From positions 2,003,585 through 2,067,584 of the forward strand of contig NZ_CP029256.1 of assembly GCF_003628755.1 (NCBI RefSeq): a stretch of 64,000 nt of DNA, read 5' to 3'. Position 1 is the stretch's first letter. Each line of letters begins with the position of its first letter. A program made the position numbers and the translations under genes. This DNA comes from Christensenella minuta (GTDB taxonomy: Bacteria; Bacillota; Clostridia; Christensenellales; Christensenellaceae). Positions 1,335-33,113 of this stretch are shown piece by piece. The notes beneath the pieces were generated by a model, which saw only the letters and a list, made by a program, of their open reading frames with translations, made no database searches and was not told where the DNA came from.

Positions 1335-2997
1335 CGTCTTCGAGGTCCTCCGAAAGCTCCTGCGCGCGTTTTTTTCTTTTCCTTTTTACCACAATTACAA
1401 TGGCCACGGCTGCCGCAGCGCCTGCGGTGATCCCCCAGCCCCACCACGGGAAACCTGCTGGCTCCTCCGGCGGGAGCTCTTCGCCGGGATCCATGCCGCC
1501 ATAATCCGGCATAGGCGTGAGGACTGTTTCAACCGGCACCTTCATCTCGTATTCTTCGCCGTACTCGTCTTCATAAGTGACGACAAAATTTCCTTCCACC
1601 GGACCGGGCTGGACGGCATCTTCCGCGCCTGCGCCGCCTACAGCCTGCACCGTGCCGCTTTCCCCCGATACAACAATCGAGTCCGGTCCATCCGCACCGC
1701 CGGTTATTGCGCCGTCCGCCGCGGGAGCCACTTCGGCATTCCCGGTTTCCGCGCCGCTCATGCCGCCCATCCCCGCATTCGGGTCCTGGGCAACGGACGC
1801 ATAGATATCCGCCGTCTTCGCCGTGCCGGATTCCATATTTCCAAGAAAAGCGCTCGATTCCGGCGTAAGACCGGGAACGTCAAGCACGACCGTTACATTA
1901 TAAAGGGTGTTTTTTCCCTTGTTGTATAAATTGAGGCTCGCGGAGGTGGTATCGCCCATATAGACTTCCGATGGGAATTTCGGCGGATCATATTCAAGAC
2001 GGATCTTCTGGTGCACCTCCACGCTGATCTCATCCGCCGCCGTAAGCTGCGCCGCCTGGCTGTCTTCGTAGGCGATGGCGATATCGATCTTCTGCGGCCC
2101 CGCTTTGGCGTCGGCGCGCGCTTCCATCGTGAAGCTGAAATCCGCCGTTTTCTTCGGGCCGATCTTTTCAATATACGCCGTATTGGTATTGTCGCCGGGC
2201 ATCAGATCGGTCGTCTGGCTTTTGAAGGTGACTGTGATGTTTTTGACGCTCGTCGATTTGCTCGTGTTGGTAAGCGTCACCTTTACGGTAAACTTTTCAC
2301 CCGCGTTGACCGGATCGGGACTGATCTCGTAATTGCTGATGATGACCTTGGGCTGAGAACTCACTCCGCTCCCCCCGCCACCGCCGCCCGCGCCGGGATC
2401 GATCCCCGGGTCTGTTCCCGGGTCTGTTCCCGGGTCTTCCGTCGGCTGACCGGACGGCTCCCCACTTGGTTCGGCCGTCGGCTCAGAGGGGTCTTGCCCG
2501 TCCGTTACCTTGACGAATACCGTAAACTCCTGCGTTTTAACAGTGCCGTCCATAAGCGGGTATTTCGCGGTGACGACAACCGGATAGTTCCCATTCACCC
2601 TGTTTTCCGCAAGCGGCAGGCTGAGGTCCACCAAATAAGACTCCTTTGTTTTCCCGTCGGCCAGCTTATTTTCCTTAAGGGATACGGCCGTATCGTAATT
2701 ATTGAATATAAAGGGAGCGGTCTTGGGATCGCCGAGGCCAACCGAAATATTGACCTGTTCCCCATTTTTCACCTGTTCTGTTCCCGGGCCGGGGACCAGC
2801 GGAAGGAGAATGCGCGCCGTTCCCCCGGATACGGCGGGGCTATATCCCTCCTGATAGGAGGCGTTCATGCCCCCGTATTGACTTTTGCCGTCGATCCGGA
2901 GCGCCGTTCCGCGCATATCCGCAGCAAATGCGGTTGGCAGCGCAAACGAAAACGCGAGTATAACGATGAGTGCGATAATTGTGATCCGTTTCTTCAT
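1321..2997 (-). CDS. Exported CARDB-like protein with C-terminal membrane anchor
   Basis: A 558-residue exported protein in an ABC export operon. It has a signal peptide (MKKRITIIALIVILAFSFA...), Ig/CARDB-like beta domains, and a Pro/Thr/Glu/Gly-rich linker around residues 195-235 (TDPGTDPG repeats, then a glycine run). More CARDB-like domains follow ('NYEISPDPVNAGEKFTVKV'), then a C-terminal membrane helix (FPWWGWGITAGAAAAVAIVI) and a short charged cytoplasmic tail. The start is the ATG at 2997; the reading frame is open further upstream but that extension overlaps the ATPase gene. It sits between the ATPase and the permease and probably replaces the usual periplasmic adaptor (HlyD/MacA-like) seen in other MacB operons. 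That role is inference from position. Confidence 0.8.
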   Translation of the reverse strand: MKKRITIIALIVILAFSFALPTAFAADMRGTALRIDGKSQYGGMNASYQEGYSPAVSGGTARILLPLVPGPGTEQVKNGEQVNISVGLGDPKTAPFIFNNYDTAVSLKENKLADGKTKESYLVDLSLPLAENRVNGNYPVVVTAKYPLMDGTVKTQEFTVFVKVTDGQDPSEPTAEPSGEPSGQPTEDPGTDPGTDPGIDPGAGGGGGGSGVSSQPKVIISNYEISPDPVNAGEKFTVKVTLTNTSKSTSVKNITVTFKSQTTDLMPGDNTNTAYIEKIGPKKTADFSFTMEARADAKAGPQKIDIAIAYEDSQAAQLTAADEISVEVHQKIRLEYDPPKFPSEVYMGDTTSASLNLYNKGKNTLYNVTVVLDVPGLTPESSAFLGNMESGTAKTADIYASVAQDPNAGMGGMSGAETGNAEVAPAADGAITGGADGPDSIVVSGESGTVQAVGGAGAEDAVQPGPVEGNFVVTYEDEYGEEYEMKVPVETVLTPMPDYGGMDPGEELPPEEPAGFPWWGWGITAGAAAAVAIVIVVKRKRKKRAQELSEDLEDDDIY

Positions 2998-6821: not shown

Positions 6822-9218
6822 TTATTTCTTCTTCAGCTCGTCGTCCGTAATCTGCAGGCTCCTGCGTACGATCTTCTTGGAAAGGAACTTGTCCGCGCGT
6901 TTTTCCACAATGCGTTCAAAGCCCCGCATCATGAACGGCGCGACCGCCGTGAAAACACACACTACAACGGCCTGCGGAAGGCTGATTGGCGCCACATCGA
7001 AAAAGCCCCTGAGGAAAATGATGCACAGGATGAACAGGCCAATGGCGCTGCCGAGGATCACCTTGCGCGCCGTGGTAAACGGCATGCTGACCTTAGCTAC
7101 CACCCACATACCGACCGCAACCGCCATGAGCATGCACATCGTGGAGACCGCCGCCGGGGTGTATTGGAAGATTCCCGCAAGCACGTTGACCGCAAGGATT
7201 CCGATAATAACGGAAAGCCCTCCGGGCAATGATTTTTTTAAAATATTAATCAGGAAATGCTCCTTGATCGGCGCAAAATTCGGCTCCAAAGCAAGGAAAA
7301 ACGCCGGGAAGCCAATGGTCACAAAACTGATTAGCGTCATCTGCAGGGGCGTAAACGGATAACTGCTGTCGAGCAGGATTACCGTCGCGAACGCAAGGAG
7401 CACCGCATACACCGTTTTGGTAATAAACAGAGTGGCCACGCGTTCTATGTTGTTGATTACCTTGCGCCCTTCATTTACAATATCGGGCATCGTCGCAAAA
7501 TTAGAATCGAGCAGCACAAGGTTGGCGATATTTTTAGCCGCGTCGCTGCCCGACGCCATAGCAATGCTGCAATCGGATTCCTTCAGGGCCAGCACGTCGT
7601 TTACGCCGTCGCCCGCCATGGCGACCGTATGACCCTTGCGTTTCAGCGCGGCAATCAATTCCTTTTTCTGGGAAGGCGTTACCCGCCCAAACACGCTGTA
7701 CTTTTCGGCAGCCGCCTCAATATCCTCCTTCGTTTTGAGCAGGGTGGCATCCACCGCTTCATAATTTTTTACGCCCGCGCGTTTGGCGATCGCGCCGGCC
7801 GTGACCGGACTGTCCCCGGATATGATCTTAAGCTCTACCTGCTGCTTCTCAAAAAATTCAAGCGTCTTTTTCGCATCCGCCCGAATCCGGTCGGAAATGA
7901 GCAGGAACGCGATGGGGCGCATTCCCCCGGGGACCTTGTTATCCAGCACGTCGGTGGCGTCGCTGTGCGCAAGCACCAGCACCCGGCTTCCTTGTTTCGC
8001 GTATTTTTCCGCGTCGAGGCCCGCATACCCGTTGGGAAAAATAAACTCGAAGGCCCCGAGGAAATAGGTCCCTTCCCCTTCAAAGCTTACGCCGCTGTAT
8101 TTACGCGCCGAAGAAAATGGCACGATGGTTTTTACTTCATGGTCAAAGCTCTTGCCGAATTTTTCCACTACGGCATGGAAAGTCGCGTTATCGTCCTGAA
8201 GCGCTCCGGCCATATTGGAGAGGATCCTGTCCAAGTCTTTTGCAGCGCCTACGGGAATGACTTCCTCCACATGCATCTTTCCCTCGGTGATCGTTCCCGT
8301 CTTGTCAAGGCACAGGATATCTACACGCGCGAGCGTCTCGATGCAGTAGAGGTCCTGCACAAGCGTCTGCTTTGTCGCGAGGATCACGGCGCTGGTTGCA
8401 AGGGAAATACTGGTGAGCAGGATAAGGCCTTCAGGGATCATGCCAATAAGGGCCCCCACCGTTTTGACCGTATTATCCGGTATGGGCAGGCCCACCACAA
8501 GCCCCTGTTTCAGAAACAGCAGAATACCCACCGGCACGATGATGATGCTGATAATTTTAAGGATGCGGTTGAGGGAATTGCGCAGCTCGGACGTACGCTT
8601 TTTAGATGCCTTCGCATCATAGGAAATTTTATTTGCATAGTTTTCAATTCCCACGCGCTCCACACGCGCGTAAGCGTTGCCCGATACGATAAAGCTGCCC
8701 GAATAAAGAAAGTCGCCCGGGCCCTTGGCCACAACGTCGGATTCGCCCGTAATCAGGGACTCGTTGACCTCCACCGATCCTTCAAGCATCACCCCGTCCG
8801 CACATACCTGGTTGCCGGGCCGAAGCTGCATCACATCGTCAAGGACGATATCCGCAACGCCGATCTCCTTTTCGGCTCCGTTCCGTACCACCGTGACCTT
8901 GGCCGCCACGATCACCGAGAGCTTATCGAGCGTTTTCTTGGTTACGATCTCCTGTGCAATCCCAATGACAAGGTTCCCCACGACAACGAGCAGGAAAACA
9001 AGTTCCTTGATGTAGCCCGTCATCACGATAAGGACCGTGAACACCATATTCAGTATATTAAAAAAGGTTACAAGGTTATCCTTAAAAATCTGCCGGTACG
9101 ATTTTGTCGTATTCGTATTATACGCATTTGTGAGACCCGCATCAATACGGCTTTTGACCTGTCCGTCCGTAAGCCCCGTGCGGCAGTCCGAATCATAGCG
9201 CTGTTGCCCGTCGTCCAT
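6822..9218 (-). CDS. Cation-transporting P-type ATPase (CtpE-like)
   Basis: A 798-residue membrane ATPase. Motifs in order: actuator TGES (SLITGESDVV), membrane-helix PEGL (MIPEGLILLTS), phosphorylated Asp in CLDKTGTITEG, and hinge motif GDGVNDVLALKES. About ten membrane helices are expected, with four after the hinge. PEGL rather than CPC/CPx argues against a heavy-metal pump. The short N-terminus and overall layout resemble CtpE-type Ca2+ or Mg2+ pumps, but ion choice is inference. It starts at ATG 9218 with GGGGAAGGA upstream and is monocistronic between two terminators. Confidence 0.9.
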   Translation of the reverse strand: MDDGQQRYDSDCRTGLTDGQVKSRIDAGLTNAYNTNTTKSYRQIFKDNLVTFFNILNMVFTVLIVMTGYIKELVFLLVVVGNLVIGIAQEIVTKKTLDKLSVIVAAKVTVVRNGAEKEIGVADIVLDDVMQLRPGNQVCADGVMLEGSVEVNESLITGESDVVAKGPGDFLYSGSFIVSGNAYARVERVGIENYANKISYDAKASKKRTSELRNSLNRILKIISIIIVPVGILLFLKQGLVVGLPIPDNTVKTVGALIGMIPEGLILLTSISLATSAVILATKQTLVQDLYCIETLARVDILCLDKTGTITEGKMHVEEVIPVGAAKDLDRILSNMAGALQDDNATFHAVVEKFGKSFDHEVKTIVPFSSARKYSGVSFEGEGTYFLGAFEFIFPNGYAGLDAEKYAKQGSRVLVLAHSDATDVLDNKVPGGMRPIAFLLISDRIRADAKKTLEFFEKQQVELKIISGDSPVTAGAIAKRAGVKNYEAVDATLLKTKEDIEAAAEKYSVFGRVTPSQKKELIAALKRKGHTVAMAGDGVNDVLALKESDCSIAMASGSDAAKNIANLVLLDSNFATMPDIVNEGRKVINNIERVATLFITKTVYAVLLAFATVILLDSSYPFTPLQMTLISFVTIGFPAFFLALEPNFAPIKEHFLINILKKSLPGGLSVIIGILAVNVLAGIFQYTPAAVSTMCMLMAVAVGMWVVAKVSMPFTTARKVILGSAIGLFILCIIFLRGFFDVAPISLPQAVVVCVFTAVAPFMMRGFERIVEKRADKFLSKKIVRRSLQITDDELKKK

Positions 9219-28466: not shown

Positions 28467-29825
28467 TCAGTAATATACGTCGATAAACCGTCCGCCTAGT
28501 GGCTCGTATACCGCCAGCGCAAGAGCGTCCGCAAGGTCGGGCGAATGCAAACCGCGCTTCTTCATTTCTTCTTTGCGTTCAAGCTCGATCTCCCCGTTGC
28601 TGTTGATCCTGTACTTGCGATCCGATAGCTGGATGATCTGCTCATCATCGTAAAACAATTCTATTTCGCCGCATTTCAGCATATTGCGAACTGTGCCCCA
28701 CATTAGACCTGTTGAATTCGCCATTTCAACCGGGTCTTCTCCTCGAATTTTGCCGCCCCGTCCTCCGAAATGGCATTCCCGGAGAACGCAGGGCAGGCCC
28801 TGTTCCCGTAAACGGTCATATACGCCGACCCCGAGACCGTCGCAATCAATTTTTACCCGCGTTTCAACCCCCGGATATTCATCGTTGTACCGCTTCACCA
28901 TAGCCGCTATATGCCCTGCGATTTCCATCGTGTCATTGTGGGCGTATATCTCCGGTCTTTGCTGGTATCGTCTGTCAAACAGCGGGCATATGACGCTCTT
29001 GTCGTCGCCGTACCGCGCCACATCAACGCCAATGTCTATTACTTTCTCGGCTTTTGTTACCACGGACTTCTTGCTACACTTCTCCACCCACTCCAGAGCG
29101 ATGAAACTATCCGCAGCCTGCTTCGGAAACTCACCAGCCACGCGCACCCGGAAGACATCTGAATCCTCGCCGTACATCTCTATAATCATACGTACGAATT
29201 CAGCGTCTACGCGCGGCGACTGTGCGCTTGATACATGGAATCCGTTATATAACTTCCGGCTCCTATTGTGAGAATCAAAAAAGAACCCCGAGAGGTTCGT
29301 AGGATTCCCGCACATCAGCAGTTTTGCGTCCGGCGTTGATAACGCTCCAAGCACCGGTTCGAATATCTTATCCGGTACGCCGCTTGCCTCATCGATAATA
29401 TACAAGATATGCTCGGCATGGAAGCCTTGCAGCGCATCGGGCTTTGTTGCTGTCCTGGGCACCGCGAACCAGTTTTCCGGATGGCCTTTCATATACACCC
29501 GTTCATACGTCCACTCTATTTCAGTTTTCAGTTTGGAGCCGTTCAGCCATTTTGCCACTTCCGCCCAAAGGATATCATAAAGTTGATGCTTCGTTGGTGC
29601 CGTGCATGGTATCTTTGGAGATGGCCGCGTACACAAAAACCAAAGAATCAGCCACGATTCCAGCGCAGATTTCCCAATACCGTGCCCACTTCGGACCGTG
29701 GTTCTTGGGTTATTAGCCACACTGCGCATGATATCTGCCTGTACATCGTCAGGCGTTACGCCGATTAAGTCAACGGCAAATTCTACTGGGTGATCGACAT
29801 AATAGTTGATTGCGTCAGCGTTCAT
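28467..29825 (-). CDS. terL: Terminase large subunit
   Basis: A 452-residue packaging motor. The N-terminal ATPase has a Walker A variant SGHGIGKS (residues 46-53) and a Walker B-like 'HILYIIDEASGV'. The C-terminal RNase-H-like nuclease has 'VIDIGVDVARYGDDKSVICP' with acidic residues and 'VKIDCDGLGVGVYDRLREQG', ending near 'LHSPDLADALALAV'. It pumps DNA through the portal encoded next and overlaps the small subunit by 11 nt. Confidence 0.93.
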   Translation of the reverse strand: MNADAINYYVDHPVEFAVDLIGVTPDDVQADIMRSVANNPRTTVRSGHGIGKSALESWLILWFLCTRPSPKIPCTAPTKHQLYDILWAEVAKWLNGSKLKTEIEWTYERVYMKGHPENWFAVPRTATKPDALQGFHAEHILYIIDEASGVPDKIFEPVLGALSTPDAKLLMCGNPTNLSGFFFDSHNRSRKLYNGFHVSSAQSPRVDAEFVRMIIEMYGEDSDVFRVRVAGEFPKQAADSFIALEWVEKCSKKSVVTKAEKVIDIGVDVARYGDDKSVICPLFDRRYQQRPEIYAHNDTMEIAGHIAAMVKRYNDEYPGVETRVKIDCDGLGVGVYDRLREQGLPCVLRECHFGGRGGKIRGEDPVEMANSTGLMWGTVRNMLKCGEIELFYDDEQIIQLSDRKYRINSNGEIELERKEEMKKRGLHSPDLADALALAVYEPLGGRFIDVYY

Positions 29826-30195
29826 TTCTTCTACTTAGCCACGCTTGCTCTACAGCAGCCGCCAAACTGTCCCCTGCTTCAATCTTGGTTTCCTGCTTGT
29901 CTTTCCATCCAAACTGTTTCAATGCAAATATGTCCCCACCGTTGCCTCTTCCGATCAATCTTTTTTCGTATGCATTCTCAATTTTGAGCTTCGCCTTTTT
30001 TACCGCGTTGGAATATTCGTCTTTCCCTTGGTAATCTATGAGGACATCCCGTGTTGTTTCCAACGCAAGAGCAAGGCCCGTGACTGTCAACGGTTCGCCC
30101 GTTCCTTCGCAATCCGCAAAGTATTTATCTATTGCATCCTGCAATGCCTTAACAGTTTTAAATTTTAACGGCCTTCCCCGTTTGTTCTCTGACAT
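29815..30195 (-). CDS. terS: Terminase small subunit
   Basis: 126 residues from ATG 30195 (MSENKRGRPLKFKTVKALQD). The basic 'RGRPLKF' start and helix-turn-helix (LTVTGLALALETTRDVLIDY) match the DNA-recognition end of small terminases. The C-terminal half (ENAYEKRLIGRGNGGDIFAL, LKQFGWKDKQ) is the typical oligomerisation/contact region. The upstream extension to 30240 lacks an SD; AGGTGAG precedes 30195. Confidence 0.9.
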   Translation of the reverse strand: MSENKRGRPLKFKTVKALQDAIDKYFADCEGTGEPLTVTGLALALETTRDVLIDYQGKDEYSNAVKKAKLKIENAYEKRLIGRGNGGDIFALKQFGWKDKQETKIEAGDSLAAAVEQAWLSRRNER

Positions 30196-30199
30196 ATTC

Positions 30200-30403
30200 T
30201 CACCTATACTCTTTCCCCGTCTGCTTATCCAGAAATACAATCCGGTCTGTTATGATATATCCTGCCGCCTTTGCCATCCTATGCAGAAGGCTGACAAACT
30301 CCATTGCCTTTTTGTCCGCGAATAGGTATTTATCTGCATTGTCTATTGCTTCTTTAGCCGTTGTATCAAGACAGTGGCTTTCGTTGTATACACTGCTTCC
30401 CAT
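30200..30403 (-). CDS. Hypothetical phage protein
   Basis: 67 residues (MGSSVYNESHCLDTTAKEAI...), helical, ending 'FLDKQTGKEYR'. AAGGAG lies 5 nt before the ATG. It is the first gene after the non-coding interval and directly upstream of the small terminase. No family recognised. Confidence 0.6.
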   Translation of the reverse strand: MGSSVYNESHCLDTTAKEAIDNADKYLFADKKAMEFVSLLHRMAKAAGYIITDRIVFLDKQTGKEYR

Positions 30404-30414
30404 ATTTTCTCCTT

Positions 30415-30445
30415 AAACAAAAACGCCACCCATCAGGATGACGCT
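30415..30445 (-). terminator. Terminator, left copy of a 31-bp direct repeat
   Basis: On the minus strand CGTCATCC-TGAT-GGGTGGCG followed by TTTTTG. The whole 31 bp is identical to 31173-31203. It would end the structured non-coding RNA. Confidence 0.75.
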
Positions 30446-30958
30446 ATTCCCCGCATGGCTCCCCGGGCGCTGGTTCATTCGCCACTTGCGCACCTCTGGT
30501 ACTGCATACGGATTATTAACTTCATGCCACACCATTAGCATTGAGCCTATTAGCGTGGAAGGACATCATCCTACAACATGGTAGGTGATTTCAAGCCCGC
30601 TATTTATATGTCGCTGCGGGCAAGCGGCAATCATTTAATCCTATTCCGCTCTAAAACCTGCTCTTATCTGTGCAGGAAACCTACGGCTTGGTTTTTTCGG
30701 GTATCAGCCAGCTTGGGCGCACGGCTATTCCCGTTGGCACTCGACAGCTTCCCAAATGCCGCCTGATTATAGCGGTATGCGCCTACCCGCTTTCACGTGA
30801 CTTTATTGACCTCTCCGCATGGAATCTTATAAAAGGGGCCGCTGATCTCTAGCCAGTCCGCTCCAGCCCGCCCCCGCGCAATTCTCCGCAGGCATACGGT
30901 TCACTGCATTTTATTCGCGGATTTTCGTGCGTTTCCATGCCTACCCACGCACTGGCAC
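30446..30958 (-). ncRNA. Candidate large structured phage RNA (ROOL/GOLLD-like class)
   Basis: About 510 nt (540 with the terminator) without a plausible gene on either strand, between terminators inside the packaging region. Many hairpins are seen on the minus strand: GTGCGT..ACGCAC, AGCGGGTA..TACCGCT, CCTGC..GCAGG, GCCCGC..GCGGGC and CCTAC..GTAGG. It follows directly on a tmRNA-like element. Large ornate RNAs of Firmicutes phages (ROOL, GOLLD) have this size, prophage setting and closeness to tRNA-type genes. I could not test covariance, so the class name is a hypothesis. ORFs crossing it look random. Confidence 0.5.
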
Positions 30959-31039
30959 TGGTGGAGATGACGAGAATTGAACTCGTGTCCGCGAATTTCC
31001 TCTTCGGGCTTACATCGCGTCGAAACCATTCACATCCCC
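30959..31039 (-). ncRNA. tmRNA-like 81-nt RNA (tRNA-like domain without tag reading frame)
   Basis: On the minus strand, GGGGATG at the 5' end pairs with CATCTCC, then A and CCA. Pair 3-70 is G-U, the alanine identity element. The D-region is GGTTTCGAC as in tmRNA, with no D stem, and the T arm is ACGAG-TTCAATT-CTCGT preceded by GGAC as in tmRNA. Between the halves only a 5-bp stem (CGCGA/TCGCG) and a 20-nt loop remain instead of ~280 nt with tag and pseudoknots. It is therefore not a normal ssrA nor a normal tRNA. It could be charged with alanine or act as a decoy; that is inference. Confidence 0.65.
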
Positions 31040-31172
31040 ATATTGCTATGCCTACAGTCCCGCATCCCCCGTTAATATAGTTTTTCTTCTTGGGAAAGGA
31101 GATTCTCAAACATTCCCGCCTCACACGTCCTCGGCATAGCTAACCAGAAAGCTCTGGCTTATTTCATTGGCA

Positions 31173-31203
31173 AAACAAAAACGCCACCCATCAGGATGAC
31201 GCT
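31173..31203 (-). terminator. Terminator, right copy of the 31-bp direct repeat
   Basis: Identical to 30415-30445. It follows the late-regulator gene (ends 31260) and separates early from late transcription. The two copies frame the non-coding interval. Confidence 0.75.
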
Positions 31204-31259
31204 TTTCATATTTTCTCACAATGTCATACTATCACAAAAAATCGGACATTACCTTCCCT

Positions 31260-31703
31260 CTAACGGTCATGTTTCATTTTTTTTAATGCGCTTTGCTTTA
31301 ATCTCCAAACTTGTTTTTCACTATAATCCATTCGCGCCGCTATTTGCGACACTCTCAGTCCTTCAAAGTATCGGTACTGAATATATTCCCTTTCTTTCTC
31401 CGTCAGCCATGCTTCATTGATCATCCGCATGATATCATCCGAAAGATAGTAGAGGTTTACGATCTCTTTTCGGATAGCGTCTATCCTCGTTCCGTATACA
31501 TCGACCATTTTTTGTACAGCAGCAAACACGGGATCGGAAGTAAGGCCGCCCATAACCCGGACGGCATCAAGATTTTGGCCGCGCAGCATGCGCTCCGCCA
31601 GTGCGTCCTTTTTATCCATAAGTTCCGCAATCTGCTTCTCCTGTTCTTCTATTCGTTTTTTATATTCCGAGTACTGATACAACTTGTTTTCAACCGCTTC
31701 CAA
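31260..31703 (-). CDS. Sigma-70-region-4-like late transcription regulator, TTG start
   Basis: 147 residues. The N-terminal coiled coil (KKRIEEQEKQIAELMDKKDA) is followed by a C-terminal helix-turn-helix of sigma region 4 type (LTEKEREYIQYRYFEGLRVS, QIAARMDYSEKQVWRLKQSA). This is the architecture of ArpU/DUF1492-like phage late activators. The start is TTG 31703, with AGGAGGGG upstream. Its place just before the terminator and the late operon supports control of late genes. Confidence 0.8.
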   Translation of the reverse strand: MEAVENKLYQYSEYKKRIEEQEKQIAELMDKKDALAERMLRGQNLDAVRVMGGLTSDPVFAAVQKMVDVYGTRIDAIRKEIVNLYYLSDDIMRMINEAWLTEKEREYIQYRYFEGLRVSQIAARMDYSEKQVWRLKQSALKKMKHDR

Positions 31704-32294: not shown

Positions 32295-33113
32295 TTATAG
32301 TCCCATGTTCCATAGCGTTATTTGCTGATCAAAATTCATCCAGAGTTTTTCAGTCCGGATTGCTCCGCTGTTTGCATTTGCCTGTTTTGTTTCCGTGTGC
32401 CATCCCGTCAGCATGTCGTTGTAAAGTTCATTATCGTACCCGGATAGCACCACCATACCGCAATGATTCAAAAGCAGCCGTAAAAGCTTTTCGTGCTCTT
32501 TCGGATCAAGCATTTCGTAACTATAAATCCTTCCTTTTCTCACATCAGGGGTGTAAGGCGGGTCGGCATAGATAAGGCAATCTTGATGATTATATTTTTC
32601 TATGAGTTCCACAGCTGGTCGGTTCTCAATCTGCGCTTCTTTCAGCCGTTTGCATATTGGGTATACATATTCCGGCATTTTCCCCCATATTTGTGCATTA
32701 ATCGGCCCCGCACTGCTCTTAGTGTTCTTCCATCCTACGCGGTCGGCAAGCTTGCATCCAAATCCTTGATTGCATCGAATCAGGAACCGCCGCGCATCTT
32801 CAACATCGTTCCCCGTCAGCTGGATTTGATCCCCTGCGTGCGGTTCATGTACCGATTCAAATTCCCGCCTTGCAAACGGTGTGCATTCAAGTGCATAGGC
32901 CAATTCATCAGGTTTATCCCTGATAACGCGGAAAAGATTGTAAATTCGACCGTCAATATCATTTATCGTTTCGTACGGAACAGGCGTTTTGCAGAAAAAC
33001 ACGGCTGCACTCCCGCAGTATGGTTCCAGATATACTTTATGCTCCGGGAAAAATGACGTGATCCACTCTGCCAGCTTCCATTTTCCTCCCGGATATTTCA
33101 GTATTGCGTTCAT
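32295..33113 (-). CDS. DNA adenine methylase (Dam/DpnM type)
   Basis: 272 residues, N6-adenine methyltransferase of the alpha class. S-adenosylmethionine motif KYPGGKWKLAEWI at the N-terminus, 'YLEPYCGSAAVFF' (motif I region), and catalytic DPPY in 'CLIYADPPYTP'. No restriction enzyme lies beside it, so it is an orphan phage methylase, plausibly protecting phage DNA or marking it for packaging or replication. Target site cannot be read from the sequence. Confidence 0.9.
   Translation of the reverse strand: MNAILKYPGGKWKLAEWITSFFPEHKVYLEPYCGSAAVFFCKTPVPYETINDIDGRIYNLFRVIRDKPDELAYALECTPFARREFESVHEPHAGDQIQLTGNDVEDARRFLIRCNQGFGCKLADRVGWKNTKSSAGPINAQIWGKMPEYVYPICKRLKEAQIENRPAVELIEKYNHQDCLIYADPPYTPDVRKGRIYSYEMLDPKEHEKLLRLLLNHCGMVVLSGYDNELYNDMLTGWHTETKQANANSGAIRTEKLWMNFDQQITLWNMGL

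Follow-up and report, generated by a model that had tools for sequence, protein, structure and literature searches.

Within the window, the whole 64,000-nt stretch of Christensenella minuta DNA that was analysed, an interval of about 0.76 kb lies on the minus strand of a prophage and is framed by two copies of a terminator. The locus comprises the following features, given from upstream to downstream on that strand.

31260..31703, minus strand: regulator gene with sigma70 region 4, the upstream neighbour (phrog_36, PF04545)
31173..31207, minus strand: upstream terminator copy T1, a 35-nt repeat; present as a single copy where the RNA is missing
31040..31172, minus strand: exchangeable 5′ module, an inverted repeat with 8-nt closing arms (31133-31140/31045-31052), then AATAT
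30959..31039, minus strand: tmRNA consisting of the tRNA-like domain (TLD) only, with acceptor stem including G3-U70, D region, P2, T arm and CCA (Rfam tmRNA, 70.2 bits)
30634..30958, minus strand: middle part of about 325 nt (link and start of the 3′ module), of which 30634-30832 is also found in the copies of the relative G001
30589..30633, minus strand: CptI-type antitoxin unit, an H-type pseudoknot of 45 nt (model searches, identity and covariation)
30450..30588, minus strand: 3′ extension in the form of the window copy, replaced in other copies (copy comparison)
30415..30449, minus strand: downstream terminator copy T2, a 35-nt repeat listed by the intrinsic-terminator scan
30200..30403, minus strand: 67-aa open reading frame (ORF) downstream of the RNA (phage family phrog_6568), not any known toxin family
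29815..30195, minus strand: terminase small subunit, TerS (phrog_606, PF16677)
28467..29825, minus strand: terminase large subunit, TerL (phrog_2)

A repeat search aligned T1 with T2 over 35 nt at 97% identity, with the first 31 nt identical and a spacing of 758, in agreement with the framing by terminator repeats described in an earlier reading made from the sequence only. T2 was found by the terminator scan as an intrinsic-terminator-like site on the minus strand, and T1 was not among the sites listed by that scan. T1 lies directly upstream of the RNA in the window, so that either read-through or an inner promoter would be needed for its expression. The cassette is on the strand of the late operon, as had been claimed, and precedes the 67-aa ORF, TerS, TerL, the portal gene and the minor head genes. 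The claim that the interval holds no credible gene also stood: its sole ORF of at least 80 aa (30849-31124, 91 aa) has no match in Pfam or PADLOC and is not common to all copies, as its 5′ part lies in sequence missing from copies C1 and C3. The 67-aa ORF downstream likewise gave no match in Pfam or PADLOC. Upstream of the regulator gene, the prophage carries a D12-class DNA adenine methyltransferase gene (32295-33113, minus strand).

A tRNA-like domain without a message

The Rfam tmRNA model (RF00023) matched over its whole length at 31039-30959 with a score of 70.2 bits, with 16 nt in the place of 310. The G3-U70 pair, the UUUCGAC sequence and the encoded CCA are all present, and the mRNA-like domain with the tag frame is missing from the position taken by the 16 nt. 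The 5′ unit is therefore an intact TLD that lacks a message. Beyond it lie about 544 nt, in agreement with the tmRNA-like element and the roughly 540 nt of further sequence proposed earlier. ARAGORN did not detect the TLD at 30959-31039. Compared with tmRNA, the cassette has the whole TLD in common but lacks the tag frame and the pseudoknots between the two halves. The genome of the window (G000) also encodes an ordinary tmRNA (193.8 bits), whose T arm differs from that of the cassette TLD.

A gene of this TLD-only kind is known from mycobacteriophage DS6A (PMC4131195, PMC11915505). In the first of these papers, a molecule of this kind, chargeable or not, is described as a strong inhibitor of tmRNA, perhaps by titration of SmpB (PMC4131195), and the DS6A form is reported to inhibit tmRNA in E. 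coli in the second (PMC11915505). The cassette shares with DS6A a phage TLD that lacks a message, with base pairs kept, a likeness drawn from the description rather than from a comparison of sequences; it differs in that its TLD sits in a longer RNA together with an antitoxin unit.

Phage contigs often carry TLD-only genes. IMG/VR was scanned with two patterns, and at least 132 viral loci fitted the second. Among the matches listed, 124 of the 132 viral loci (87 unique sequences) passed both an acceptor-stem test (six of seven pairs, best of six offsets) and a P2 test (five of six pairs, best of three registers), so that the count of TLD-only genes is at least 124 among these matches. The same pattern yielded 108 matches in GTDB genomes, seven of which passed both tests; most of the others were, by eye, 3′ ends of ordinary tmRNAs. 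G3 occurred in 93/93 of the unique TLDs listed, under a pattern that demanded U70 and left G3 free, and CCA was encoded in 32/93. From these 93 unique sequences among the matches listed, 17 of the 23 with a 15-nt offset were aligned, including two from cassette copies. In the alignment 98.3% of cells were paired and 74 cells were changed on both sides, versus no more than 15 in slid controls. Two of the five covariation measures were not clearly above shuffles (57 and 33 of 500).

Further loci were chosen non-randomly, for ORF-free flanks or for variety, giving 19 that were scanned by cmscan and 50 others. The tmRNA model reached its gathering score in 16 of the 19, the exceptions being L160, L111 and L256; the L160 TLD passes the pair tests and lies below the gathering score. 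No CptI unit was detected beside other TLDs in the 100 sequence sources scanned with the CptI model. Among the at least 124 IMG/VR loci with TLD-only genes (for example L043:968-1050, plus strand), an AAGCC...CGGA loop is often present. Streptomyces phage BRock (KX925554.1) carries a TLD-only tmRNA gene in a tRNA array (L396:594-674, 64.5 bits) that is missing from the annotation of the record.

A CptI-type antitoxin unit at the 3′ end

A model of the 3′ module gave a weak match (E 0.035) in G001, a genome of the same genus, and this match led to a CptIN/TenpIN locus. There, two repeats and a terminator-like hairpin are followed by a CptIN toxin gene and an adjoining TenpIN toxin gene (NCBIfam, 125.6 and 135 bits, respectively; cut-off 90 for both). 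The unit at 30589-30633 has 89% identity to one of the repeats beside the CptIN gene. For covariation, 17 of 21 located units were picked by eye, comprising 14 repeats from eleven CptIN loci and three phage units; two identical copies as well as L310a and L317a were left out. Two crossing stems are common to the units, 88.2% of cells pair, and 10 of the 11 pairs change on both sides, with 38 double-change cells versus at most six in slid controls. Neither the observed cells paired nor the covariation score was reached in any of 500 shuffles, and the further pair types were not above shuffles (281/500).

Comparison with antitoxin regions upstream of 16 CptIN, 11 TenpIN and 23 ToxN genes (L308, L309, L335, L336 and L357-L363 left out) gave the CptI unit a local score of 65, while the highest-scoring shuffled query reached 26. 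No other module of the cassette rose above shuffled queries in these regions, and the middle part (30634-30958) matched none of them. Searched against 20 relatives, the CptI model placed the six phage units, along with both G001 repeats, at E <1e-8, with the next match at 0.015; five weak matches in relatives look by eye like ordinary chromosomal sequence. In the 100 sequence sources, the best match beyond the phage copies and G001 repeats reached only E 0.7. Sequence and a covarying pseudoknot both place the 3′ unit in the CptI antitoxin family. The sequence-only reading had recognised neither this unit nor that the tmRNA-like element is a complete TLD of a kind present in many phage contigs.

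The E. rectale CptI repeat, as described in PMC4627078, shares with the cassette unit the S1-L1-S2-S1′-L2-S2′ pseudoknot, the AUAUAAAU loop and the UUGA end, as well as a terminator directly after it, which several cassette copies have. A single E. rectale unit was reported there to be fully antitoxic, and A29U or loss of U30 abolished antitoxicity (PMC4627078); the phage units keep both of these essential L2 bases. Their S1 stem has a C-A mismatch, which is also found in the G001 antitoxin, and in copy C3 the expected cleavage motif UUGA is replaced by UUAA. The cassette differs from the E. rectale system in that its single unit has no toxin gene and is part of a phage RNA with other modules. 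Each cassette RNA holds one CptI unit, rather than tandem repeats upstream of a CptN gene, and profile searches for CptIN, TenpIN and ToxN gave no match in G000. We therefore describe the unit as one that would work like CptI and not as a CptIN system. CptIN itself matches in 14 of the 391 genomes of the class, 11 of them above the cut-off.

A prophage in G000 thus bears an antitoxin unit unaccompanied by its toxin, as with pseudo-ToxI. In G001, one of the two cassette-bearing prophages does carry a CptIN toxin. This prophage adjoins ssrA and has an integrase, CptN, TenpN and an S24 repressor on one strand (toxins at L059:2620-5866, minus strand), with early genes, a helicase, a 147-aa ORF, the RNA and TerS on the opposite strand. 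The RNA and TerS lie 11 kb from the toxin and repressor genes, and toxin and antitoxin look-alike are here on one prophage.

A CptI scan of IMG/VR for units of the E. rectale type gave two loci, one of which is a CptIN locus by eye. A CptI unit of 38.8 bits occurs at L388:14653-14698 (plus strand), the same site as L395:4259-4304, in the 150,785-bp record IMGVR_UViG_2910649936_000002. The unit stands singly within a tRNA array, immediately 3′ of tRNA-Asn, and the CptIN toxin has no match anywhere in this record.

Copies and exchange of the cassette

The core (30589-31040) occurs at four places in G000 with about 99% identity and differing flanks; C1 and C2 lie in near-identical stretches and C3 elsewhere. 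G001 contains two copies of the last 244 nt, which lack the TLD and carry the 5′ module of C3. The TLD is thereby missing from two of the six cassette copies, both in G001, and the CptI unit is retained in all six, with different flanks. Upstream of the core, the window copy has one stem-closed module and C3 has another, also followed by AATAT; C1 and C2 have no 5′ module, and a bare terminator hairpin precedes their TLD. At the corresponding site, related prophages in G002, G003 and G005 lack the RNA and show a single terminator. The likeness between the window and G005 runs as far as the terminator's end and resumes about 500 nt past T2. The near-identical core at places with differing flanks and the RNA-free sites with a single terminator support the earlier suggestion of a cassette that arrived or excises as a unit, in that it seems to move as one, and a structured non-coding RNA cassette of prophages is likewise supported. 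TLD and CptI unit lie together in one cassette between the regulator gene and the terminase genes.

The range of the cassette is narrow. The 3′-module model has matches in two of 395 genomes of the order, and strong matches to the 5′ module among 80 relatives were confined to G000 and G001 (42 of the 80 pass E 0.5, the remaining matches starting at 0.013). The interval had no match in a phage collection, and its three matches among plasmids are all confined to the TLD.

Possible roles of the cassette

By analogy with known phage RNAs, we consider it fairly probable that the cassette is a mobile phage RNA gene carrying molecular decoys, which would mimic an antitoxin, and probably also tmRNA, to blunt host defence. 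A precedent for the first part is PhiTE, whose ToxI-like RNA can block ToxN in the course of infection (PMC3475682). Both are phage-encoded look-alikes of a type III antitoxin; the PhiTE pseudo-ToxI is of the ToxI family and belongs to a lytic phage, with repeats expanded under selection (PMC3475682), whereas the cassette unit is of the CptI family, lies in a prophage and is joined to a TLD.

We suggest that the RNA would be made late or on induction, and that RNase P and 3′ tRNA processing would release the TLD. The freed TLD could then compete for SmpB, AlaRS or EF-Tu and draw them away from the host tmRNA. The CptI unit may bind CptN-type ribonucleases, much as PhiTE pseudo-ToxI counters ToxN, so that the burst would be spared damage from toxin released during phage growth. 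For the G001 prophage that has its own CptIN, this toxin may be the target, which would protect the prophage itself when induced; for G000, the target would be CptIN encountered in other hosts. A type III toxin cuts mRNA and would leave stalled ribosomes for tmRNA, so the TLD and the CptI unit may, we infer, act around one event. E. rectale CptIN is reported to have left more than 200 coliphages unaffected (PMC4627078), and CptIN is therefore not a proven phage defence.

It is rather unlikely that the RNA is a functionless passenger, made of pieces of a toxin–antitoxin locus and of tmRNA that were acquired by recombination. The copies are nearly identical and may be recent, and the unit with its terminator resembles the 3′ end of an antitoxin array, as a passenger would allow; against this, both units retain every structural feature tested, the CptI unit persists among different flanks, a separate phage has a CptI unit too, and TLD-only genes covary widely.

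An ornate RNA of the ROOL/GOLLD type, forming an oligomer or cage with the TLD and pseudoknot as building or docking elements, also appears unlikely. The sequence-only reading had likened the interval to this class. What stands of that resemblance is the layout, an exchangeable 5′ part, a tRNA-like element and a more conserved 3′ part: GOLLD, according to PMC12286853, has a conserved 3′ part, a variable 5′ part and sometimes tRNAs in the linker, and the cassette is alike in this and, as with both GOLLD and ROOL, in being a large phage RNA near tRNA-like elements. Membership fell away, as the proposed Rfam search gave no match of the interval to ROOL (RF03087) or GOLLD (RF02032) at E<=10; besides tmRNA, only weak matches under the gathering scores were returned. 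Nor did the unusual hairpin richness noted earlier withstand comparison with shuffled sequences, since the interval folds no better than these (z -0.49 on the minus strand, -0.23 on the plus strand), and hairpin density by itself is then no evidence. Taken singly, five modules of the window had z of -0.16 to -0.89, and the 3′ module of a G001 copy -2.17; RNAalifold on five copies of the 3′ module gave 0 of 67 pairs with double changes. True ROOLs do occur beside TLDs on the same strand, with the TLD 38 nt 5′ of the ROOL in L161 (TLD 2471-2553, ROOL 1831-2432, minus strand) and 104 nt 5′ in L160 (TLD 7119-7201, ROOL 7306-7902, plus strand). This neighbourhood was seen in 2 of the 19 loci scanned by cmscan and, for ROOL or GOLLD, in 0 of the 50 other records, in searches where no match of any kind came up.

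A regulatory leader of the late operon, in which the RNA between T1 and T2 would take part in attenuation or antitermination, seems quite improbable. Its position directly before the terminase genes with terminators at both ends, and the single terminator of RNA-free sites, would suit such a role, but the TLD and the CptI unit are left unaccounted for, and the 5′ part, the 3′ extension and the terminators differ among copies. The TLD as an attachment-site remnant of integration into ssrA, a notion prompted by the G001 prophage of the same group that adjoins ssrA, was rejected as highly improbable, given that it lies about 12 kb from the integrase, has both halves and has a T arm unlike that of the host tmRNA.

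The two parts of the proposed decoy RNA each have precedents, and their combination in one phage RNA is a variant of known elements; our searches of the open-access literature turned up neither a CptI unit carried by a phage nor a TLD linked to an antitoxin. If the decoy reading is true, type III antitoxin RNA mimicry reaches beyond the single selected lytic phage PhiTE, into prophages and the CptIN family, and is combined with a tmRNA decoy. Two questions become testable: why message-free TLDs are kept by many phages, and whether CptIN has an anti-phage action. More tentatively, and with rather less confidence, phages might gather RNA mimics (TLDs, type III antitoxin units and perhaps more in the remaining modules) in one processed transcript, within or like tRNA arrays, as a modular counter-defence RNA of several decoys swapped as cassettes. 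Phage tRNA arrays and unexplained phage RNAs are accordingly places to seek further RNA anti-defence units.

Last, two stretches of the link are complementary to the P2 and the T arm of the TLD (30988-30996/30913-30921 and 30972-30979/30879-30886, respectively). They could form a switch, and by our estimate chance suffices to explain them.
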